Made by a program: the position numbers and the translations under genes. The notes beneath the pieces are model-generated. The model was not told the DNA's origin and searched no databases. It was given only the letters and a program-made list of their open reading frames with translations. Positions 22,733 through 43,689 of a stretch of 64,000 nucleotides of DNA are shown one piece after another (position 1 is the first letter of the stretch; each line of letters starts with the position of its first letter). The stretch is from Thiopseudomonas denitrificans (lineage in GTDB: Bacteria; Pseudomonadota; Gammaproteobacteria; Pseudomonadales; Pseudomonadaceae): positions 62,001 through 126,000 of the forward strand of contig NZ_LNJZ01000005.1 of NCBI RefSeq assembly GCF_002866065.1. Reading direction: 5' to 3'.

Positions 22733-23596
22733 ATGAAGTGTCAACAGGGTATTTTGATTGAACCGGTGCCTGCAGTGGCACGGCATGTATTTTATACGTT
22801 GGCCGATGTGGCCGACCTGCCAAGGGCGCTGGCTGCCCTGGCGGAACTGGCTGACGGTGAGGCGGTCGTGGCCGGGCTGGGCATTGGCGTGATGCAGGCA
22901 CTGGGCAAATCGCCGGCGTCACTGCGGATGTTTCCGGCGTTGAGCCACCAGGGCATCAATATCCCGTCCACCCAGCAGGCGCTGTGGCTGTGGCTGCGTG
23001 GCGATGATCGCGGCGAATTGCTGTTCCGTACCATGGAGCTGGACAAGGCGCTGGCGCCGGCGTTCAAGCCGGTGCAGGTCACTGATGCATTCCGTTACCT
23101 GTCCGGCCATGACTTGTCCGGCTATGAGGACGGTACCGAAAACCCGGTTGATGACGAAGCGGTGGCGGTGGTTACTGCCACGGGCGCAGAGGGCGGCAGC
23201 TATGCGGCCATCCAGCACTGGGAGCATGACCTGGGTTATTTCAAGTCGCTGCCGCAGCAGGACCAGGACCATATCATTGGGCGCCGGTTGAGTGACAACG
23301 AGGAAATCGAAGACGCTCCCGAGTTTGCCCATGTCAAGCGTACCGCCATGGAAGATTTTGAGCCGGAAGCCTTTGTCGTGCGTCGTTCCATGCCCTACAT
23401 CGATGGTGATGTGGCCGGGTTGGTATTTCTGGCGTTTGGTGAGTCGCTGGATCAGTTCGAAGTGCAGCTGCGCCGCATGATCGGCCTGGACGACGAGATT
23501 GTCGATGGCCTGTTCCGTTTCAGCCGGCCGGTTACCGGTGGCTATTACTGGTGCCCGCCGGTGGTGAATGGCAAGCTGAAAATTCATTTCCAGTGA
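22733..23596 (+). CDS. Dyp-type haem peroxidase
   Basis: 287 residues from MKCQQGILIEPVPA. The GxxDG motif (GYEDGTENP) with the catalytic Asp and the later FEVQLRRMIG and TGGYYWCPP blocks define the dye-decolourising peroxidase family (YfeX-like subclass by length). These cytoplasmic enzymes use haem and peroxide to oxidise porphyrinogens and phenolics. No encapsulin gene or Tat signal is present, so it is probably cytoplasmic and not encapsulated. Followed by about 570 bp of repeats without a gene. Confidence 0.9.
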   Translation: MKCQQGILIEPVPAVARHVFYTLADVADLPRALAALAELADGEAVVAGLGIGVMQALGKSPASLRMFPALSHQGINIPSTQQALWLWLRGDDRGELLFRTMELDKALAPAFKPVQVTDAFRYLSGHDLSGYEDGTENPVDDEAVAVVTATGAEGGSYAAIQHWEHDLGYFKSLPQQDQDHIIGRRLSDNEEIEDAPEFAHVKRTAMEDFEPEAFVVRRSMPYIDGDVAGLVFLAFGESLDQFEVQLRRMIGLDDEIVDGLFRFSRPVTGGYYWCPPVVNGKLKIHFQ

Positions 23597-23797
23597 TAGT
23601 TGTTTTTACCTTGGGTGAGGCAGCTTGCCAGAGCACTCCGCAAAGCGGACGCTGCCAGTGTCGAAGCAAGCTTCGCCCCTGTTGCTGATGCTTTGCTACG
23701 GCCTCTACCAATCTGCAGATTCACCCATGCGTTTGTGGGGGAGTGGGCCGGCTACGCCGGCCTGCTGTCGCGTGGTGTGATCATGAATTTTGTGGGA

Positions 23798-23981
23798 GGG
23801 AGCTTGCCCCCGAGAGGCAGAAAGTATGCGCTTTCTCGGGGGCAAGTCCCTTCGCACAGATCTTTTTACACGAACTCTCTGTAGGTGCGAATTTATTCGC
23901 ACAACGGGTGCCAACGAGACTCTGTGCTTCCAGCCGCAAGGCTGAGCTTGCTGGGCAATGTTCGAATAAGTTCGCACCTAC
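23798..23981. repeat. REP-like repeats of two types
   Basis: First a facing pair GGGAGCTTGCCCCCGAGA (23800) and TCTCGGGGGCAAGTCCC (23834), resembling Pseudomonas REP doublets. Then a GTAGGTGCGAATTTATTCGC module (23881) and an inverted TTCGAATAAGTTCGCACCTA module (23961). The 568-bp gap 23597-24164 contains these, the hairpin at 24046, and no believable gene. Confidence 0.75.
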
Positions 23982-24045
23982 GGGTTGTGTTCGCACAAAA
24001 AGCCCGGCGCAGTCGGGCCAATTCCCTCCAACCTAGCAAAGAGTC

Positions 24046-24145
24046 ATGCCGTCCGGGTAAGGCCGGAGTTCGGCATCAGCCTGTCCTTCTGCTTTTAACA
24101 GAAGGGCGGCCGTCAGCCGAACGTAGTGCCTTGCCCGAACGGCAT
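24046..24145. other. 100-bp nested hairpin downstream of gatB
   Basis: Outer arms ATGCCGTCCGGGTAAGGC and GCCTTGCCCGAACGGCAT pair at 16 of 18 positions. Inside are GTTCGGC/GCCGAAC (24068, 24116) and CCTTCTG/CAGAAGG (24085, 24099). It starts 20 bp beyond the gatB stop. No U-run follows, so it is not a classical terminator; it could be a mobile palindrome or mRNA 3'-end structure. Confidence 0.6.
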
Positions 24146-24164
24146 CACACCGCAGTGCAAAAAA

Positions 24165-25610
24165 CTAACCTTCCAGCTTCTTGAGCAGCAGCTCGTTAAC
24201 CTGTTGCGGGTTGGCCTTGCCTCTGGAGGCTTTCATCGCCTGACCGACAAAGAAGCCGAACATCTTCTTGCGGCGGTTATCATCGGCGTTGCGGTATTCC
24301 TCAACCTCGGTAGCGTTGGCCGCCAGCATCTCGTCGAGAATGGCCTCGATGGCACCGCTGTCGGTGACCTGCTTCAGGCCGCGTTTTTCGATGATTGCAT
24401 CGGCACTGCCCTCGCCATTGGCGATGGCCTCAAATACCGCCTTGGCGATGTTGCCGCTGATGGTGTTGTCCTTGATGCGTACCAGCAGCTCGCCCAGCTG
24501 TTGCGCGCTGACCGGGGACTGCCCGATTTCCAGGTTGTCCTTGTTGAGCAGGCTGGACAGCTCACCCATGGCCCAGTTGGCTGCGAGCTTGGCATCACCG
24601 CAGATTTTCTCCACCTGCTCGAAGTAGTCGGCCATGGCGCGGCTGGCGGTCAGCACGCTGGCGTCATAGGCGGACAGGCTGAACTGGCTCTGAAAGCGTT
24701 CGCGTTTCTGTGCCGGCAGTTCCGGCAGCGTTGTGCGCAGCTGTTCCAGATAGCCGGGTTCGATCACCACCGGCAGCAGGTTGGGGCAGGGGAAGTAACG
24801 GTAGTCGGTGGCCTCTTCCTTGCTGCGCATGGCGCGTGTCTCGTCCTTGGCCGGATCGTACAGGCGGGTCTGCTGCACCACCTTGCCACCGTCCTCGATC
24901 AGTTCGATCTGGCGGCGGATCTCGGTGTTGATGGCACGCTCGATGAAGCGGAACGAGTTGACGTTCTTGATCTCGGTACGGGTACCGAACTCTTTCTGTC
25001 CGACCGGGCGCACCGACACGTTACAGTCGCAGCGGAACGAGCCTTCGGCCATGTTGCCGTCGCACACGCCCAGATACTGCACCAGGCTGTGGATGGCGCG
25101 GGCGTAGGCTACAGCCTCCTTGGCGTTGCTGATTTCCGGCTCGGAGACGATTTCCAGCAAGGTGGTGCCGGCCCGGTTGAGGTCGATACCGCTCATGCCG
25201 CTGAAGTCTTCGTGCAGGCTCTTGCCGGCGTCCTCTTCCAGGTGGGCGCGGGTGATGCCGATGCGCTTGGTGCTGCCGTCTTCCAGGGTGATGTCCATGT
25301 GGCCCTTGCCGACGATGGGCAGGTCCAGCTGGCTGGTCTGGTAGCCGCTGGGCAGGTCGGGATAGAAGTAGTTCTTGCGGTCGAAGCGGCTGATTTCGCC
25401 GATTTCGGCATCTACCGCCAGGCCGAACAGGCAGGCCATGCGTACGGCTTCTTCATTGAGTACCGGCAGGGTGCCGGGCATCGCCAGATCACCGGCGCTG
25501 GCCTGGCTGTTGGGAGCCGCACCGAATTCGGTGCTGCTGCCGGAGAAGATCTTGGTTTTGGTGGCCAGTTGGGCGTGGATTTCGAGTCCGATTACAGTTT
25601 CCCATTGCAT
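24165..25610 (-). CDS. gatB: GatB, aspartyl/glutamyl-tRNA amidotransferase subunit B
   Basis: 481 residues. GatB phosphorylates the Asp/Glu on mischarged tRNA and then amidates it with ammonia. Metal and catalytic residues appear intact: [10 protein letters not shown] (Glu, His), [10 protein letters not shown] (Glu), [11 protein letters not shown] (Glu). [16 protein letters not shown] and [16 protein letters not shown] are recognisable, and the C-terminal YqeY-like tRNA-binding tail ends in [10 protein letters not shown]. It is the last gene of gatC-gatA-gatB, 12 bp after gatA. The intact kinase contrasts with the degenerate GatA. Confidence 0.95.
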
Positions 25611-25622
25611 GTCGGGATCTCC

Positions 25623-27071
25623 TTAGTATCCGCTGGGGCGGCCGGTATGCCAGTCGGTCGCGAGTTGGTACTGGTGGGCGGCATTGAGCAGACGGGCTTC
25701 CTGGAACCAGGGGGCCAGCAGCTGACTGCCGACGGGCAGGCCATCAACCAGGCCACAGGGCATGGACAGGGCCGGCAGGCCGGCCAGGTTGGCCAGGGCG
25801 GTATAGCGCTGGCTGTCACGTTCGGCGGCAACATCGGCCGCTTCGCTGAGCAGGCGTGGCAGGGCGGCGGTGACCGGGGCCAGGATCAGGTCGACCGTAT
25901 CAAAGGCGGCGACAAAAGCCTGCTTGATCAGGCGACGGACTTTTTGTGCCTGCACGTAGTAGCGCTCGTACTGGCCGACCGACAGGTAATATGCGCCGAG
26001 CATGACTTGCAGCTGTACCGACGGGCCAAAGCCTTCGCTGCGGCTACGCTGGTAGAGATCGTCCAGGCTGGCGGGGTTGTCGCAGCGGTGGCCAAAGCGG
26101 ACACCATCGAAGCGCGACATGTTGGTGGAGGCTTCGCCACTGCCGATAATGGTGGCACAGGCCACGGCCTGGTCTGCATGGGCCAGTTCGATATCGATCA
26201 GGGTTGCGCCCAGCTGTTGCAGCTGTTCGGCGCTGGCCAGCACCTGTGCGGCAATGCGGCCGTCCAGTGCTTCGTCGAACAGGTTGCGGGCAATGCCGAT
26301 GCGCAGGCCGTTGAGCGGTTGGCCCAGAGTGGTGCTGTAGTCGCTCACCGGCTCGCTGGCGCTGGTTGAGTCGCGCGGGTCGAAACCGGCACCGGCCTGT
26401 AGCAACAGGGCGGCATCTTCTGCGCTGCGGGTGATGAAACCGGCCTGGTCGAAACTGGAAGCATTGGCGGTCATGCCTAGCCGGGAGATGCGGCCATAGG
26501 TCGGTTTCAGTCCGGTCAGGCCATGGTGGGCTGCCGGCAGGCGGATGTCGCCAAAGCTGTCGCAGCCGCTGGCGGCAGAAGCCAGGCCTGCGGCAACTGC
26601 AACCGCGCTGCCGCAGGCCGCGCCGCCACTGATGCGCTGCGCATCCCGCGGATTGAGGGTGGCACCGTAGAAGCTGGAGGTACCACTGGCGGCCATGCCG
26701 AATTCGTCCATGTTGGTTTTGCCCAGGCTGACGGCGCCAGCTGCGGCCAGTTGCTCAAGCAGGTGCGCGCTGTAGGGAGCGACAAAATTGTCGAGCATTT
26801 TCGAACCGCAACTGGTACGCACGCCCTTGCTGCAGAAGGTGTCCTGGTGGGCCAGCGGCAGGCCGGCCAGGGCGCTGGCGCTGCCATTGGCGCGGGCGCT
26901 GTCTGCCGCATCGGCTTGTGCCAGTGTCTGTTCGGCAGTCAGCGTGATGAAACTGTTGAGCTGCGGGTCCAGCTGTTCGATGCGCTGGATATAGTGGGTG
27001 GCCAGCTCGCGGGCGCTGTAGTCGCCCTTGGCCAGTGCCCGTGCCTGTTGGGCCAGTGTTTGCTGATGCAT
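25623..27071 (-). CDS. gatA: GatA homologue with all three amidase catalytic residues replaced
   Basis: 482 residues from MHQQTLAQQARAL, full GatA length, no frameshift or stop. The amidase-signature fold is clear (RTSCGSKMLDNF, LGKTNMDEF, LTGLKPTYGR, SRFDGVRFGHR). GatA normally hydrolyses glutamine with a Lys-Ser-Ser triad (Lys79, Ser154, Ser178 in Staphylococcus aureus, as I recall). The aligned positions here, with identical spacing, are Gln76 (LAHQDTF for LAHKDxF), Ala151 (GGAACGS for GGSSGGS) and Asp175 (GCDSFGDIR for GTDTGGSIR). By sequence it cannot be a normal glutaminase. It lies between gatC (11 bp) and gatB (12 bp) as usual, so it is the native locus and not a stray paralogue. It may be a structural subunit of an ammonia-using complex. 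Confidence 0.9.
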   Translation of the reverse strand: MHQQTLAQQARALAKGDYSARELATHYIQRIEQLDPQLNSFITLTAEQTLAQADAADSARANGSASALAGLPLAHQDTFCSKGVRTSCGSKMLDNFVAPYSAHLLEQLAAAGAVSLGKTNMDEFGMAASGTSSFYGATLNPRDAQRISGGAACGSAVAVAAGLASAASGCDSFGDIRLPAAHHGLTGLKPTYGRISRLGMTANASSFDQAGFITRSAEDAALLLQAGAGFDPRDSTSASEPVSDYSTTLGQPLNGLRIGIARNLFDEALDGRIAAQVLASAEQLQQLGATLIDIELAHADQAVACATIIGSGEASTNMSRFDGVRFGHRCDNPASLDDLYQRSRSEGFGPSVQLQVMLGAYYLSVGQYERYYVQAQKVRRLIKQAFVAAFDTVDLILAPVTAALPRLLSEAADVAAERDSQRYTALANLAGLPALSMPCGLVDGLPVGSQLLAPWFQEARLLNAAHQYQLATDWHTGRPSGY

Positions 27072-27082
27072 GGTGGAAATCC

Positions 27083-27370
27083 TTAGTCGAGCACTTTGGG
27101 AACGAGGTAGAGACCGTTTTCGGTGGCGGGAGCCAGGCTCTGGTACAGTTCGCGCTGGTTGGGCTCGCTGACTACGTCGGCACGCAGGCGCTGGGTCATG
27201 TCCAATGGGCTGACCAGGGGCTCGATTCCGTTGGTGGCTACGCCACTGATGCATTCTGTCAGGGCGGTCAGCTGGTCCAGATTGCTGGCCAGCCTGTCGG
27301 GGCCGTCATTGTCTAGCCGGATCTGGGTCAGTCGCGCGAGGGTTTGCACGTCGGTAGATGTAAACGCCAT
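27083..27370 (-). CDS. gatC: GatC, aspartyl/glutamyl-tRNA amidotransferase subunit C
   Basis: 95 residues. The segment NGIEPLVSPLDMTQRLRADV and the end ENGLYLVPKVLD are diagnostic. GatC wraps around GatA and GatB and stabilises the complex. It is the first gene of the operon and faces mreB. Confidence 0.93.
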   Translation of the reverse strand: MAFTSTDVQTLARLTQIRLDNDGPDRLASNLDQLTALTECISGVATNGIEPLVSPLDMTQRLRADVVSEPNQRELYQSLAPATENGLYLVPKVLD

Positions 27371-39795: not shown

Positions 39796-42700
39796 ATGCT
39801 CATTTTGCGTGGTGCACCCGCCCTAACCGAATTTCGTCATCAATCCCTGCTGCAGAAAATCCAGGCCATAGTGCCGGAAGCCGGGCAGGTATATGCCGAG
39901 TTTGTGCATTTCCTGGACCTGAGTGCCGGTCTGGATGCAGCAGAAGAACAGCGCTTGCAGCAGCTGCTGGATTATGGCCCGGATGCGGTGGCGCAGCAGC
40001 CGGAAGGTCGCCTGCTGCTGGTGGTACCGCGCATCGGCACCCTGTCGCCCTGGTCCAGCAAGGCTACAGACCTGTTGCGCCATGCCGGCCTGCACAAGCT
40101 CAACCGCATTGAGCAGGGCGTTGCCTATTACCTGGATGCACAACTGGACGCCGCGCAGTTCAAGGCGGTACGCGCCCTGTTGCACGACCGTATGAGCCAG
40201 ACCGTGCTTGATGACATGCAGGCTGCCGCTGCCCTGTTTGCCGGAGAAGCGCCACGCCCGCTGACTGTGGTGGATGTTTTGGGTGGCGGCCTGGCCGCGC
40301 TGCAAAAGGCCGACGCCGAGCTGGGGCTGGCGCTGGCCGAAGACGAGATGGATTATCTGGTAGAGAACTTCCGCAAGCTGGGCCGCAATCCGCATGATGT
40401 CGAACTGATGATGTTCGCCCAGGCCAACTCAGAACACTGCCGCCACAAGATCTTCAACGCCAGCTGGGACATTGATGGCGAAGCACAGCAGAAATCGCTG
40501 TTCGCCATGATCAAGAATACCTACCAGAACAACAGCGCCGGTGTATTGTCCGCCTACAAGGACAACTCCTCGGTGATCGAGGGCTTCACCACCGGCCGTT
40601 TTTTCCCCGACGCACAGGATGGCCAGTACCGTGCCCACCAGGAACCGGTGCACATCCTGATGAAGGTGGAAACCCATAACCATCCGTCCGGCATTGCACC
40701 CTATCCCGGTGCCGGTACCGGCTCTGGTGGCGAGATCCGTGACGAGGGTGCCACCGGCATCGGTTCGCGGCCCAAGGCCGGCCTGACCGGTTTCACCGTG
40801 TCCAGCCTGAACATCCCCGGCTATGAGCTGCCCTGGGAACTGCAATACGGCAAGCCCGGCCGCATGGTCGATGCGCTGGAGGTGCTGATCGAGGGCTCGA
40901 AAGGCGGTGCGGCCTTCAACAACGAATTTGGCCGCCCGGTGCTCAATGGCTACGTGCGCAGCTTCGAGCAGGAAGTGCAGACCGTCAACGGCGCCGAGGT
41001 ACGCGGCTATCACAAGCCGATCGTGCTGGCTGGCGGCCTGGGCAACATCCGTGACGGGCATGTGCAGAAAGGTGAAATCAGGCCCGGCAGCCAGCTGATT
41101 GTGCTGGGTGGCCCGGCCATGTTGATCGGTCTGGGTGGTGGTGCGGCCTCGTCGGCCGACACCCTGGCCGAAGATGACCTGGACTTCGCTTCCGTGCAAC
41201 GCGGCAACCCCGAGCTGGGTCGTCGCTGCCAGGAAGTGATCGACCGCTGCTGGCAGCTGGGTGACGACAACCCGATCCGCTTCATCCATGACGTTGGCGC
41301 CGGCGGTTTGTCCAACGCCTTTCCCGAGCTGGTCAACGATGCCGGCCGCGGCGGGCGCTTCGAGTTGCGCGACATGCCCAGCGCCCAGCCGGGCCTGAGT
41401 CCGCTGGAGCTGTGGTGCAACGAATCTCAGGAGCGCTACGTGCTGGCGGTGGACAGCGAAGACCTGCAGCGCTTTGCCGATATCTGTGCCCGCGAGCGTT
41501 GCCCCTTTGCCGTGGTTGGTGAAGCCACCGCGGAACAGCAGCTGGTACTGGGCGATCGCCACTTCGGCAACCAGCCGGTGGACATGCCGCTGGATGTGCT
41601 GCTGGGCAAGCCGCCCCGCATGCACCGCAATGTGAGCCGCGAAGACAGCTGTCCGCAGCTGTTTGCCGCCGACCAGCTGAGCCTGATCCAGAGTGTCGAG
41701 CGCGTGCTGCGTCATCCGAGCGTGGCCAGCAAGAACTTTGTCATCACCGGGTCTGACCGCACGGTGACCGGTCTGGTGGTGCGCGACCAGCTGGTTGGCC
41801 CCTGGCAGGTGCCGGTGGCTGACTGCGCGGTAACCGCCCAGAGCTTCGACAGTTTCCATGGCGAAGCCATGGCCATGGGCGAGCGTACGCCGGTGGCCAT
41901 CCTCAATGCCCCGGCCTCAGGTCGTCTGGCAGTGGGCGAGACCATCACCAACCTGGCTGCGGCCCGCATTGAGAAACTGAGCGACATCCGCCTGTCTGCC
42001 AACTGGATGGCCGCTGCCGGCCACCCGGGCGAAGACGTACGCTTGTACGACACCGTCAAGGCGGTGGGCATGGAGTTGTGCCCGCAACTGGACATCTGCA
42101 TTCCGGTCGGCAAGGACTCCATGTCGATGAAAACCCGCTGGCAGGATGGCGGCGAAGAGAAAGCCGTGACTTCGCCCGTGTCCCTGATCATCAGCGGCTT
42201 TGCGCCGGTACCTGATGTACGCGGGACCCTGACTCCCCAATTGCAGCTGGACCGGGGCGATACCAGCCTGTTGCTGGTCGATCTGGGTCGTGGCCAGAAT
42301 CGCCTCGGTGGCTCCATCCTGGCGCAGGTGTATTCCGAGCTGGGTGATGTCACCCCTGATCTGGACCGGGCTTCCGACCTCAAGGCGTTCTTCGACAGCA
42401 TCCAGCAGCTGAACCAGCAGGGCAAGTTGCTGGCCTACCACGACCGTTCCGACGGCGGCCTGCTGGTCACTGTCGCAGAAATGGCCTTTGCCGGTCACTG
42501 TGGCTTGCAGCTTGAACTGGATGCATTGCAGATCGCCGGCAGCCAGATCATGGCAGCGCTGTTCAACGAGGAACTGGGCGCGGTCATTCAGGTGCGCAAC
42601 TCCGATATCACGGCAGTACAGGCGCTGTTCGGGGAGCAGGGGCTGGCCGGTTGCGTTCACGTCATTGGCGTGCCGCAAGCCGGCAACGAGATCCGGATCA

Positions 42701-43689
42701 GCCTGGCCGGCCAGCTGATGTACAGCGAGCAGCGCAGCCGCCTGCATCAGGTGTGGAGCGAAACCAGCTATCAGATCGAACGCCTGCGTGACAACAGCGC
42801 TTGCGTACAGCAGGAGTTTGACGGGTTGCTCGACGAGCAGAACCCGGGGCTGGGTGCCCGGCTGACTTTTGATATCAATCAGGATCTGGTTGCGCCCTAC
42901 CTGAATCTGGCGAGCCGCCCGCAGGTGGCGATCCTGCGTGAGCAGGGCAGCAACGGCCAGAGCGAACTGGCTGCCGCTTTTGACCGTGCCGGCTTTGCCG
43001 CCATTGACGTGCACACCAGCGACCTGGCCGCCGGCCGGGTCAGTCTGGCTGACATGAAGGGCCTGGCTGTCAGTGCCGGCTTCTCCTTTGGTGATACCTT
43101 CGGTGCCGGTGCCGGCTGGGCCAACAGCATTTTGCTGGATGCGCAGCTGCGCGAGCAGTTTGCCGGCTTCTTCGCCCGCAGCGACAGTTTCACCCTGGGT
43201 GTCGGTAACGGCTGCCAGATGCTGGCCCGCCTGCAGGAACTGATCCCCGGTGCCGAGCACTGGCCGCTGTTTGCAGACAACACGTCCGGACGTTTCGAGG
43301 GCCGTCTGGCCATGGTCGAGGTACAGGAGTCACCGTCGATCCTGCTGGCCGGCATGGCCGGTTCACGCCTGCCGGTCGCCGTGGCCTGTGCCAGTGGCCG
43401 TGCGCAGTTTGCCAGTGAAGATGCGCGTACCGCTGCCAATGCCTCCGGATTGGTGGCGCTGCGCTTCACCGACAACCATGGCCAGGTCACCGAGGCCTAT
43501 CCGGCCAACCCCTGCGGTACGCCGGACGGCATTACCGGCCTGACCAGTCGTGATGGCCGTGTCACTCTGCTGATGACCAACCCCGAGCGCCTGTTCCGCA
43601 CCGTGCAGCACAGCTGGCATCCGCAGGACTGGCAGGAAGACGCTGCCTGGTTGCGCCTGTTCGGTAATGCCCGGGCCTGGGTCAACTAG
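39796..43689 (+). CDS. purL: phosphoribosylformylglycinamidine synthase with disabled glutaminase domain
   Basis: 1297 residues, full large-type PurL. The synthetase part is normal-looking: [69 protein letters not shown]. PurL converts FGAR to FGAM with ATP and ammonia drawn from glutamine by its C-terminal class I amidotransferase. That domain's triad (Salmonella Cys1135, His1260, Glu1262, from memory) falls at a constant +2 offset on Gly1137 ([10 protein letters not shown] for GVCNGCQ), Asn1262 (MTNPER for MPHPER) and Glu1264. The conserved SHGEGR is ACASGR (1197-1202). The domain is kept in length but cannot use glutamine in the known way. Single gene with a downstream hairpin. Confidence 0.95.

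Follow-up and report, generated by a model that had tools for sequence, protein, structure and literature searches.

The locus raises the question of how a GatCAB amidotransferase could still serve translation when its amidase subunit has none of the residues of the glutaminase triad. The stretch of DNA that was analysed, here called the window, is 64,000 nucleotides long and comprises bases 62001-126000 of contig 2 in a genome of 2.84 Mb. It harbours gatC, gatA and gatB next to each other and all on the minus strand, in an order which we take to be that of Pseudomonas. The three genes and the changed triad codons are:

27083..27370, minus strand: gatC, present
25623..27071, minus strand: gatA, amidase subunit of GatCAB without the glutaminase triad; frame intact, 482 aa, no internal stop
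24165..25610, minus strand: gatB, kinase/transamidase subunit, strongly conserved
26844..26846, minus strand: GatA codon 76, Gln replaces the catalytic Lys (S. aureus Lys79)
26619..26621, minus strand: GatA codon 151, Ala replaces the cis-Ser (S. aureus Ser154)
26547..26549, minus strand: GatA codon 175, Asp replaces the nucleophilic Ser (S. aureus Ser178)

The first-pass annotation had read Gln76, Ala151 and Asp175 at the triad sites of an uninterrupted gatA frame of 482 codons. Both readings were borne out, as the three residues align with Lys79, Ser154 and Ser178 of S. aureus GatA and the frame is intact over its whole length. The changes that it saw in the surrounding motifs (GGSSGGS to GGAACGS, GTDTGGSIR to GCDSFGDIR and NESSHYG to GTSSFYG) were right as well. 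Against the Pfam Amidase profile the protein scores 399.5 bits and covers 445/445 profile positions. When we searched for a second gatA none was found, and the genome has a single Amidase-family gene.

Alignment with GatA from relatives showed that the triad change is common to the genus genomes G000 (that of the window), G002 and G003, while the other GatAs compared keep the triad, with one exception at one site. Outside the genus, 109 GatAs were compared (27 of the same family, 80 from genome_contigs and two from the PDB, those of P. aeruginosa and S. aureus); Lys and cis-Ser were present in 109/109 and Ser178 in 108/109. The family is taken to be Pseudomonadaceae from the gene order and from P. 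aeruginosa GatA, which shares up to 88% identity with the family members. The GatAs of G002 and G003 are 79% and 69% identical to that of the window, and both carry Gln, Ala and Asp at the triad. Gln is encoded by CAG, CAG and CAA in the three genus genes, Ala by GCG, GCC and GCA, and Asp by GAC, GAC and GAT. Because these independent genomes share the same residues through different synonymous codons, the triad loss is not due to chance, and an assembly or read error is ruled out. Among 30 family loci, a pattern for the changed GatA signature matched the three genus loci and no others. The GatA counts for the genus do not include a fourth genome, G001, whose contig ends within gatB. In the open-access literature we found no report of a natural GatA without the triad. 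A Gallionella MAG (JAUYJO010000165.1, L058) encodes an otherwise normal GatA with a lone Ser178 to Ala change (GGAIRQPA), either an error or a second case of loss.

The glutamine pocket is changed too, at two positions which the first-pass annotation did not include:

26154..26156, minus strand: GatA codon 306, Ala replaces glutamine-pocket Tyr309 (S. aureus)
25809..25811, minus strand: GatA codon 421, Gln replaces Asp425 (S. aureus; equivalent to yeast Asp418, which recognises the glutamine amide)

In the structure of yeast GatFAB, Asp418 holds the amide and Arg334 the carboxylate of glutamine beside Ser154, cis-Ser130 and Lys52 (PMC4027206). Tyr309Ala and Asp425Gln were found in 3/3 genus GatAs. 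Arg358Gln occurs in the window genome only, and G002 and G003 keep Arg358. This GatA is thus predicted to have no glutaminase activity. Its fold appears to be retained: the AlphaFold2 model has a pLDDT of 87 and a pTM of 0.90, and the nearest structure is P. aeruginosa GatA (4wj3_A) with a TM score of 0.97. The dN/dS of gatA is ~0.18-0.26 within the genus versus 0.04-0.05 in pairs of relatives. By this measure GatA is still constrained, but more loosely than in relatives. Of the columns that are invariant in the family, 46-51 of 221 are changed in GatA of the genus and 11-13 of 250 in GatB.

GatB remains tightly conserved. That it retains the metal and kinase residues had been stated before and held up, with Glu10, His12 and Glu125 all present. 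Within the genus, GatB sequences share 92-98% identity, and the gatB dN/dS is ~0.06-0.08 versus 0.02-0.04 in relatives. Against this background two otherwise invariant residues are exchanged:

25347..25349, minus strand: GatB codon 88, Ser replaces the Lys that is invariant in all other GatBs examined
25161..25163, minus strand: GatB codon 150, Thr replaces an otherwise invariant Pro

Lys88Ser is present in 4/4 genus genomes, with Lys in 103/103 others (79/79 and 24/24), and so is Pro150Thr, with Pro in 77/77 and 24/24 others. At position 126, the window genome and G001 still have Glu, like 102/102 others, whereas G002 and G003 have Gln. We take Lys88 and Glu126 to be residues of the ammonia tunnel, and Lys88 to be its gate. 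Nakamura (2006) and Zhao (2012 and 2016) are said to have placed this Lys and Glu in the tunnel. Between G002 and G003, the dS of gatB is 0.17 and that of gatA 0.94, which suggests that gatB may have been exchanged recently between the two. In G001, gatB (L136, G001:C200) falls into two frames, with the break between codons 219 and 247, by an assembly error or by real damage.

The first-pass annotation had proposed to look in the genome for asnS, asnA, asnB and glnS, and these look-ups were carried out. No AsnRS above the cut-off was found in the window genome or in any family genome searched, and the window genome has no further AsnRS-like paralogue. The look-up for AsnA found none, and the PF00733 matches in the genus were short and low-scoring and do not represent AsnB. 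GlnRS is present. AspRS is of the Pseudomonas type and keeps the His of RRDHGG and the Gly of R-P-x-G, which presumably mark it as non-discriminating. Since AsnRS, AsnA and AsnB were not found and AspRS is of this type, GatCAB would still have to make Asn-tRNA(Asn).

GatA is not the only amidotransferase of this genus without its glutaminase residues. CarA scores 340-353 bits in the genus versus 460-472 in relatives, and carA has evolved more rapidly in the genus than it has in relatives. In G000, G002 and G003 the CarA motif GICLGHQ has become GVGLGHQ (Cys to Gly), and FQGHPEAS has become FQGVPHLS or FQGIPHVS, with loss of His and Glu; CarA of G001 is partial, so that the CarA residue count refers to three species. 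GuaA has Gly for Cys in 4/4 genus genomes, and its glutaminase domain is missing the C-terminal half and with it QFHPE; its synthetase domain is intact. The Gly at the lost Cys site (CarA 3/3, GuaA 4/4) is encoded variously by GGA, GGT and GGC. PurL, which is encoded in the window, is changed at the equivalent residues:

39796..43689, plus strand: purL, FGAM synthetase, full length; glutaminase domain without nucleophile
43204..43206, plus strand: PurL codon 1137, Gly replaces the catalytic Cys1135 (E. coli)
43579..43581, plus strand: PurL codon 1262, Asn replaces the catalytic His1260 (E. coli)

NadE is of the long form. In its nitrilase domain FPEL reads FPSL and CED reads GDE, which removes Glu and Cys but leaves Lys in place. 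The his operon passes from hisB to hisA across a gap of ~185 bp, in the place where the relative G021 has hisH. A whole-genome GATase profile search detected neither HisH nor TrpG/PabA in the four genus genomes, while it found them in relatives. The evidence on PurL, NadE and the hisH gap comes from the window genome only, whereas the losses in GatA, CarA and GuaA were seen in 3-4 species. Part of the hisH gap (L223:7656-7839) is taken up by an intergenic repeat of ~75 bp that is dispersed over more than 20 further sites of the genome and frequently forms inverted pairs. A distinct repeat family lies at 23590-24170 of the window.

GatA, CarA, GuaA, PurL and NadE, which lost the nucleophile and kept the synthetase part, represent three unrelated folds (amidase, class I GATase and nitrilase). 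The coordinated losses in GatA and at least four other nitrogen-transfer enzymes suggest a switch toward free ammonia, by which the lineage may have moved much of its biosynthesis away from glutamine. PyrG is intact with a complete glutaminase. PurF keeps Cys, Arg73, Asn101, Gly102 and Asp127, and Thr76 is Val. As the PyrG glutaminase is complete and the Cys of PurF is kept, the switch would be incomplete. The event concerns the nitrogen economy of the whole cell and not one subunit, and the frame of the first-pass annotation was too narrow. Among the three outcomes which it had listed for the complex, free ammonia, another donor or a role outside amidation, the first is now favoured. What speaks against a new dedicated donor is that this one genome has also lost the glutaminase sites of CarA, GuaA, PurL and NadE.

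GlnA is present, as are GdhA (65% identical to the E. coli protein) and GlnK (glnK at L222:12006-12341). AmtB was found neither beside glnK nor elsewhere in the 2.39 Mb (84% of the genome) searched; NH3 can diffuse without AmtB. GltB, GlmS, TrpE and GlsA were likewise not found in these 2.39 Mb. An acyl-CoA dehydrogenase gene (L213:12035-14044) contains an internal, near-perfect duplication of ~77 codons which keeps the frame.

Taken as a whole, we consider it probable that GatCAB still amidates Asp-tRNA(Asn) and uses dissolved ammonia to do so, as part of a lineage-wide switch from glutamine to ammonia. In the mechanism that we propose, the non-discriminating AspRS would charge tRNA-Asn with Asp, and the Asp side chain would be activated by GatB with ATP. 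Dissolved NH3 would enter, probably through the GatA pocket, now empty, and the tunnel between GatA and GatB, where Lys88 is gone, and attack the activated Asp to give Asn-tRNA(Asn). GatA would be kept as a scaffold for assembly of the complex and as a wall of the tunnel. Ammonia would always be sufficient in the cell, and would be fixed by glutamate dehydrogenase and glutamine synthetase. Yeast GatFAB accepts NH4Cl (PMC4027206), and amidotransferases can use ammonia in vitro (PMC3376133). It also seems likely that, across the genus, most amidotransferase reactions now run on free ammonia instead of glutamine, by way of independent site losses in at least three unrelated folds, losses of whole glutaminase subunits and a matching remodelling of the GatB tunnel.

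A variant of this explanation holds that ammonia is constantly high, that the glutaminase sites rot without any advantage and that the enzymes run on ammonia at reduced efficiency. It differs on selection and not on the donor, and its probability overlaps with that of the preferred reading; we regard it as possible but rather unlikely. It would fit the faster evolution of gatA and carA and the genomes of the genus, which at 2.2-2.8 Mb are small for the family. However, the replacements look fixed (Gln76, Ala151 and Asp175 in 3/3, Gly in 3/3 CarA and 4/4 GuaA), although a strict test would need more than three species, and GatB is changed at an otherwise invariant Lys while being highly conserved.

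Alternatively, a separate glutaminase or ammonia-releasing enzyme could dock on GatCAB or on the asparagine transamidosome and replace the supply from GatA. Amidotransferases commonly carry the glutaminase on a second subunit (PMC3376133), and a title cited in PMC8406222 reports glutaminase activity of a mycobacterial non-discriminating AspRS. A docked partner is nevertheless improbable. A search of 84% of the genome gave no GlsA homologue, the lone asparaginase-like match is short (a frame of 162 codons), and no new gene of such a kind lies beside gatCAB. Moreover, one partner would leave the losses in CarA, GuaA, PurL and NadE, with their different folds and interfaces, unexplained. GatA might also have gained a different active site and still hydrolyse glutamine or another amide, for instance with Asp175 or with Cys170, which is present in 3/3 genus GatAs and 0/109 others. 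Even with the fold retained this is very improbable, as Tyr309 and Asp425 of the pocket are gone, and Arg358 too in the window genome; no precedent is known to us, and the losses in CarA, GuaA, PurL and NadE would each require a rescue of their own. That GatCAB no longer amidates and has a new role, with Asn-tRNA made by another route, would fit the glutaminase loss taken alone but is hardly credible next to the absence of AsnRS, of an AsnRS-like paralogue, of AsnA and of AsnB in the searches above, an AspRS of the non-discriminating type, and a gatB under strong purifying selection with its metal and ATP residues kept.

Textbooks treat glutamine as the compulsory nitrogen carrier because free cellular ammonia is thought to be low. 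If the switch to free ammonia is real, the glutamine-carrier rule can be dropped in evolution, and translation as well as purine, pyrimidine, NAD and histidine synthesis would all rest on a standing pool of free ammonia. The organism would then be predicted to be tied to an ammonia-rich place, and its proteins would provide natural glutaminase-free enzymes for the study of ammonia tunnels. Ventosimonas, an ant-gut genus in the Pseudomonadaceae, sits on a long branch, and the microbiome of its host forms ammonia from urea (PMC5840417); a habitat of this kind would fit the prediction. In a survey of ~500-900 genomes per family, no GatABC, GuaA, CarAB or PurL without a glutaminase component was listed among 490-730 genomes each; the survey counted genes and not active-site residues (PMC3376133). 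Amidotransferases that lost their glutaminase are known singly, and what is new here is a coordinated set in one bacterial genus.

The closest known system is GatCAB of P. aeruginosa, seen in the asparagine transamidosome (PDB 4wj3). Both share the gatC-gatA-gatB operon, a full-length GatA fold (the TM score given above), the kinase and metal residues of GatB, a non-discriminating type of AspRS and the lack of AsnRS. Unlike the P. aeruginosa complex, the one described here lacks the GatA triad together with Tyr309 and Asp425, as well as Lys88 in GatB, and no glutaminase activity is expected of it. E. coli NadE is a single-domain, ammonia-dependent enzyme that uses free ammonia in vivo. NadE is thus an amidotransferase family with members living on free ammonia; the E. 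coli form has no glutaminase domain, whereas the enzyme described here has two domains, with a nitrilase domain without Glu and Cys. The archaeal PurF' proteins, which have no N-terminal Cys and are proposed to use ammonia (PMC3261824), are likewise amidotransferase homologues without the glutaminase nucleophile. They represent a single enzyme of putative function, and PurF of the window genome keeps its Cys. In human CPS1 the glutaminase domain is retained with Ser in place of Cys, and free ammonia is taken from outside (PMC4655335). As in animal CPS1, the glutaminase domain was structurally kept after loss of the nucleophile, with the use of ammonia predicted here from the sequence. CPS1, however, is one eukaryotic enzyme of another fold, whereas several unrelated amidotransferases are affected here in one bacterial lineage.
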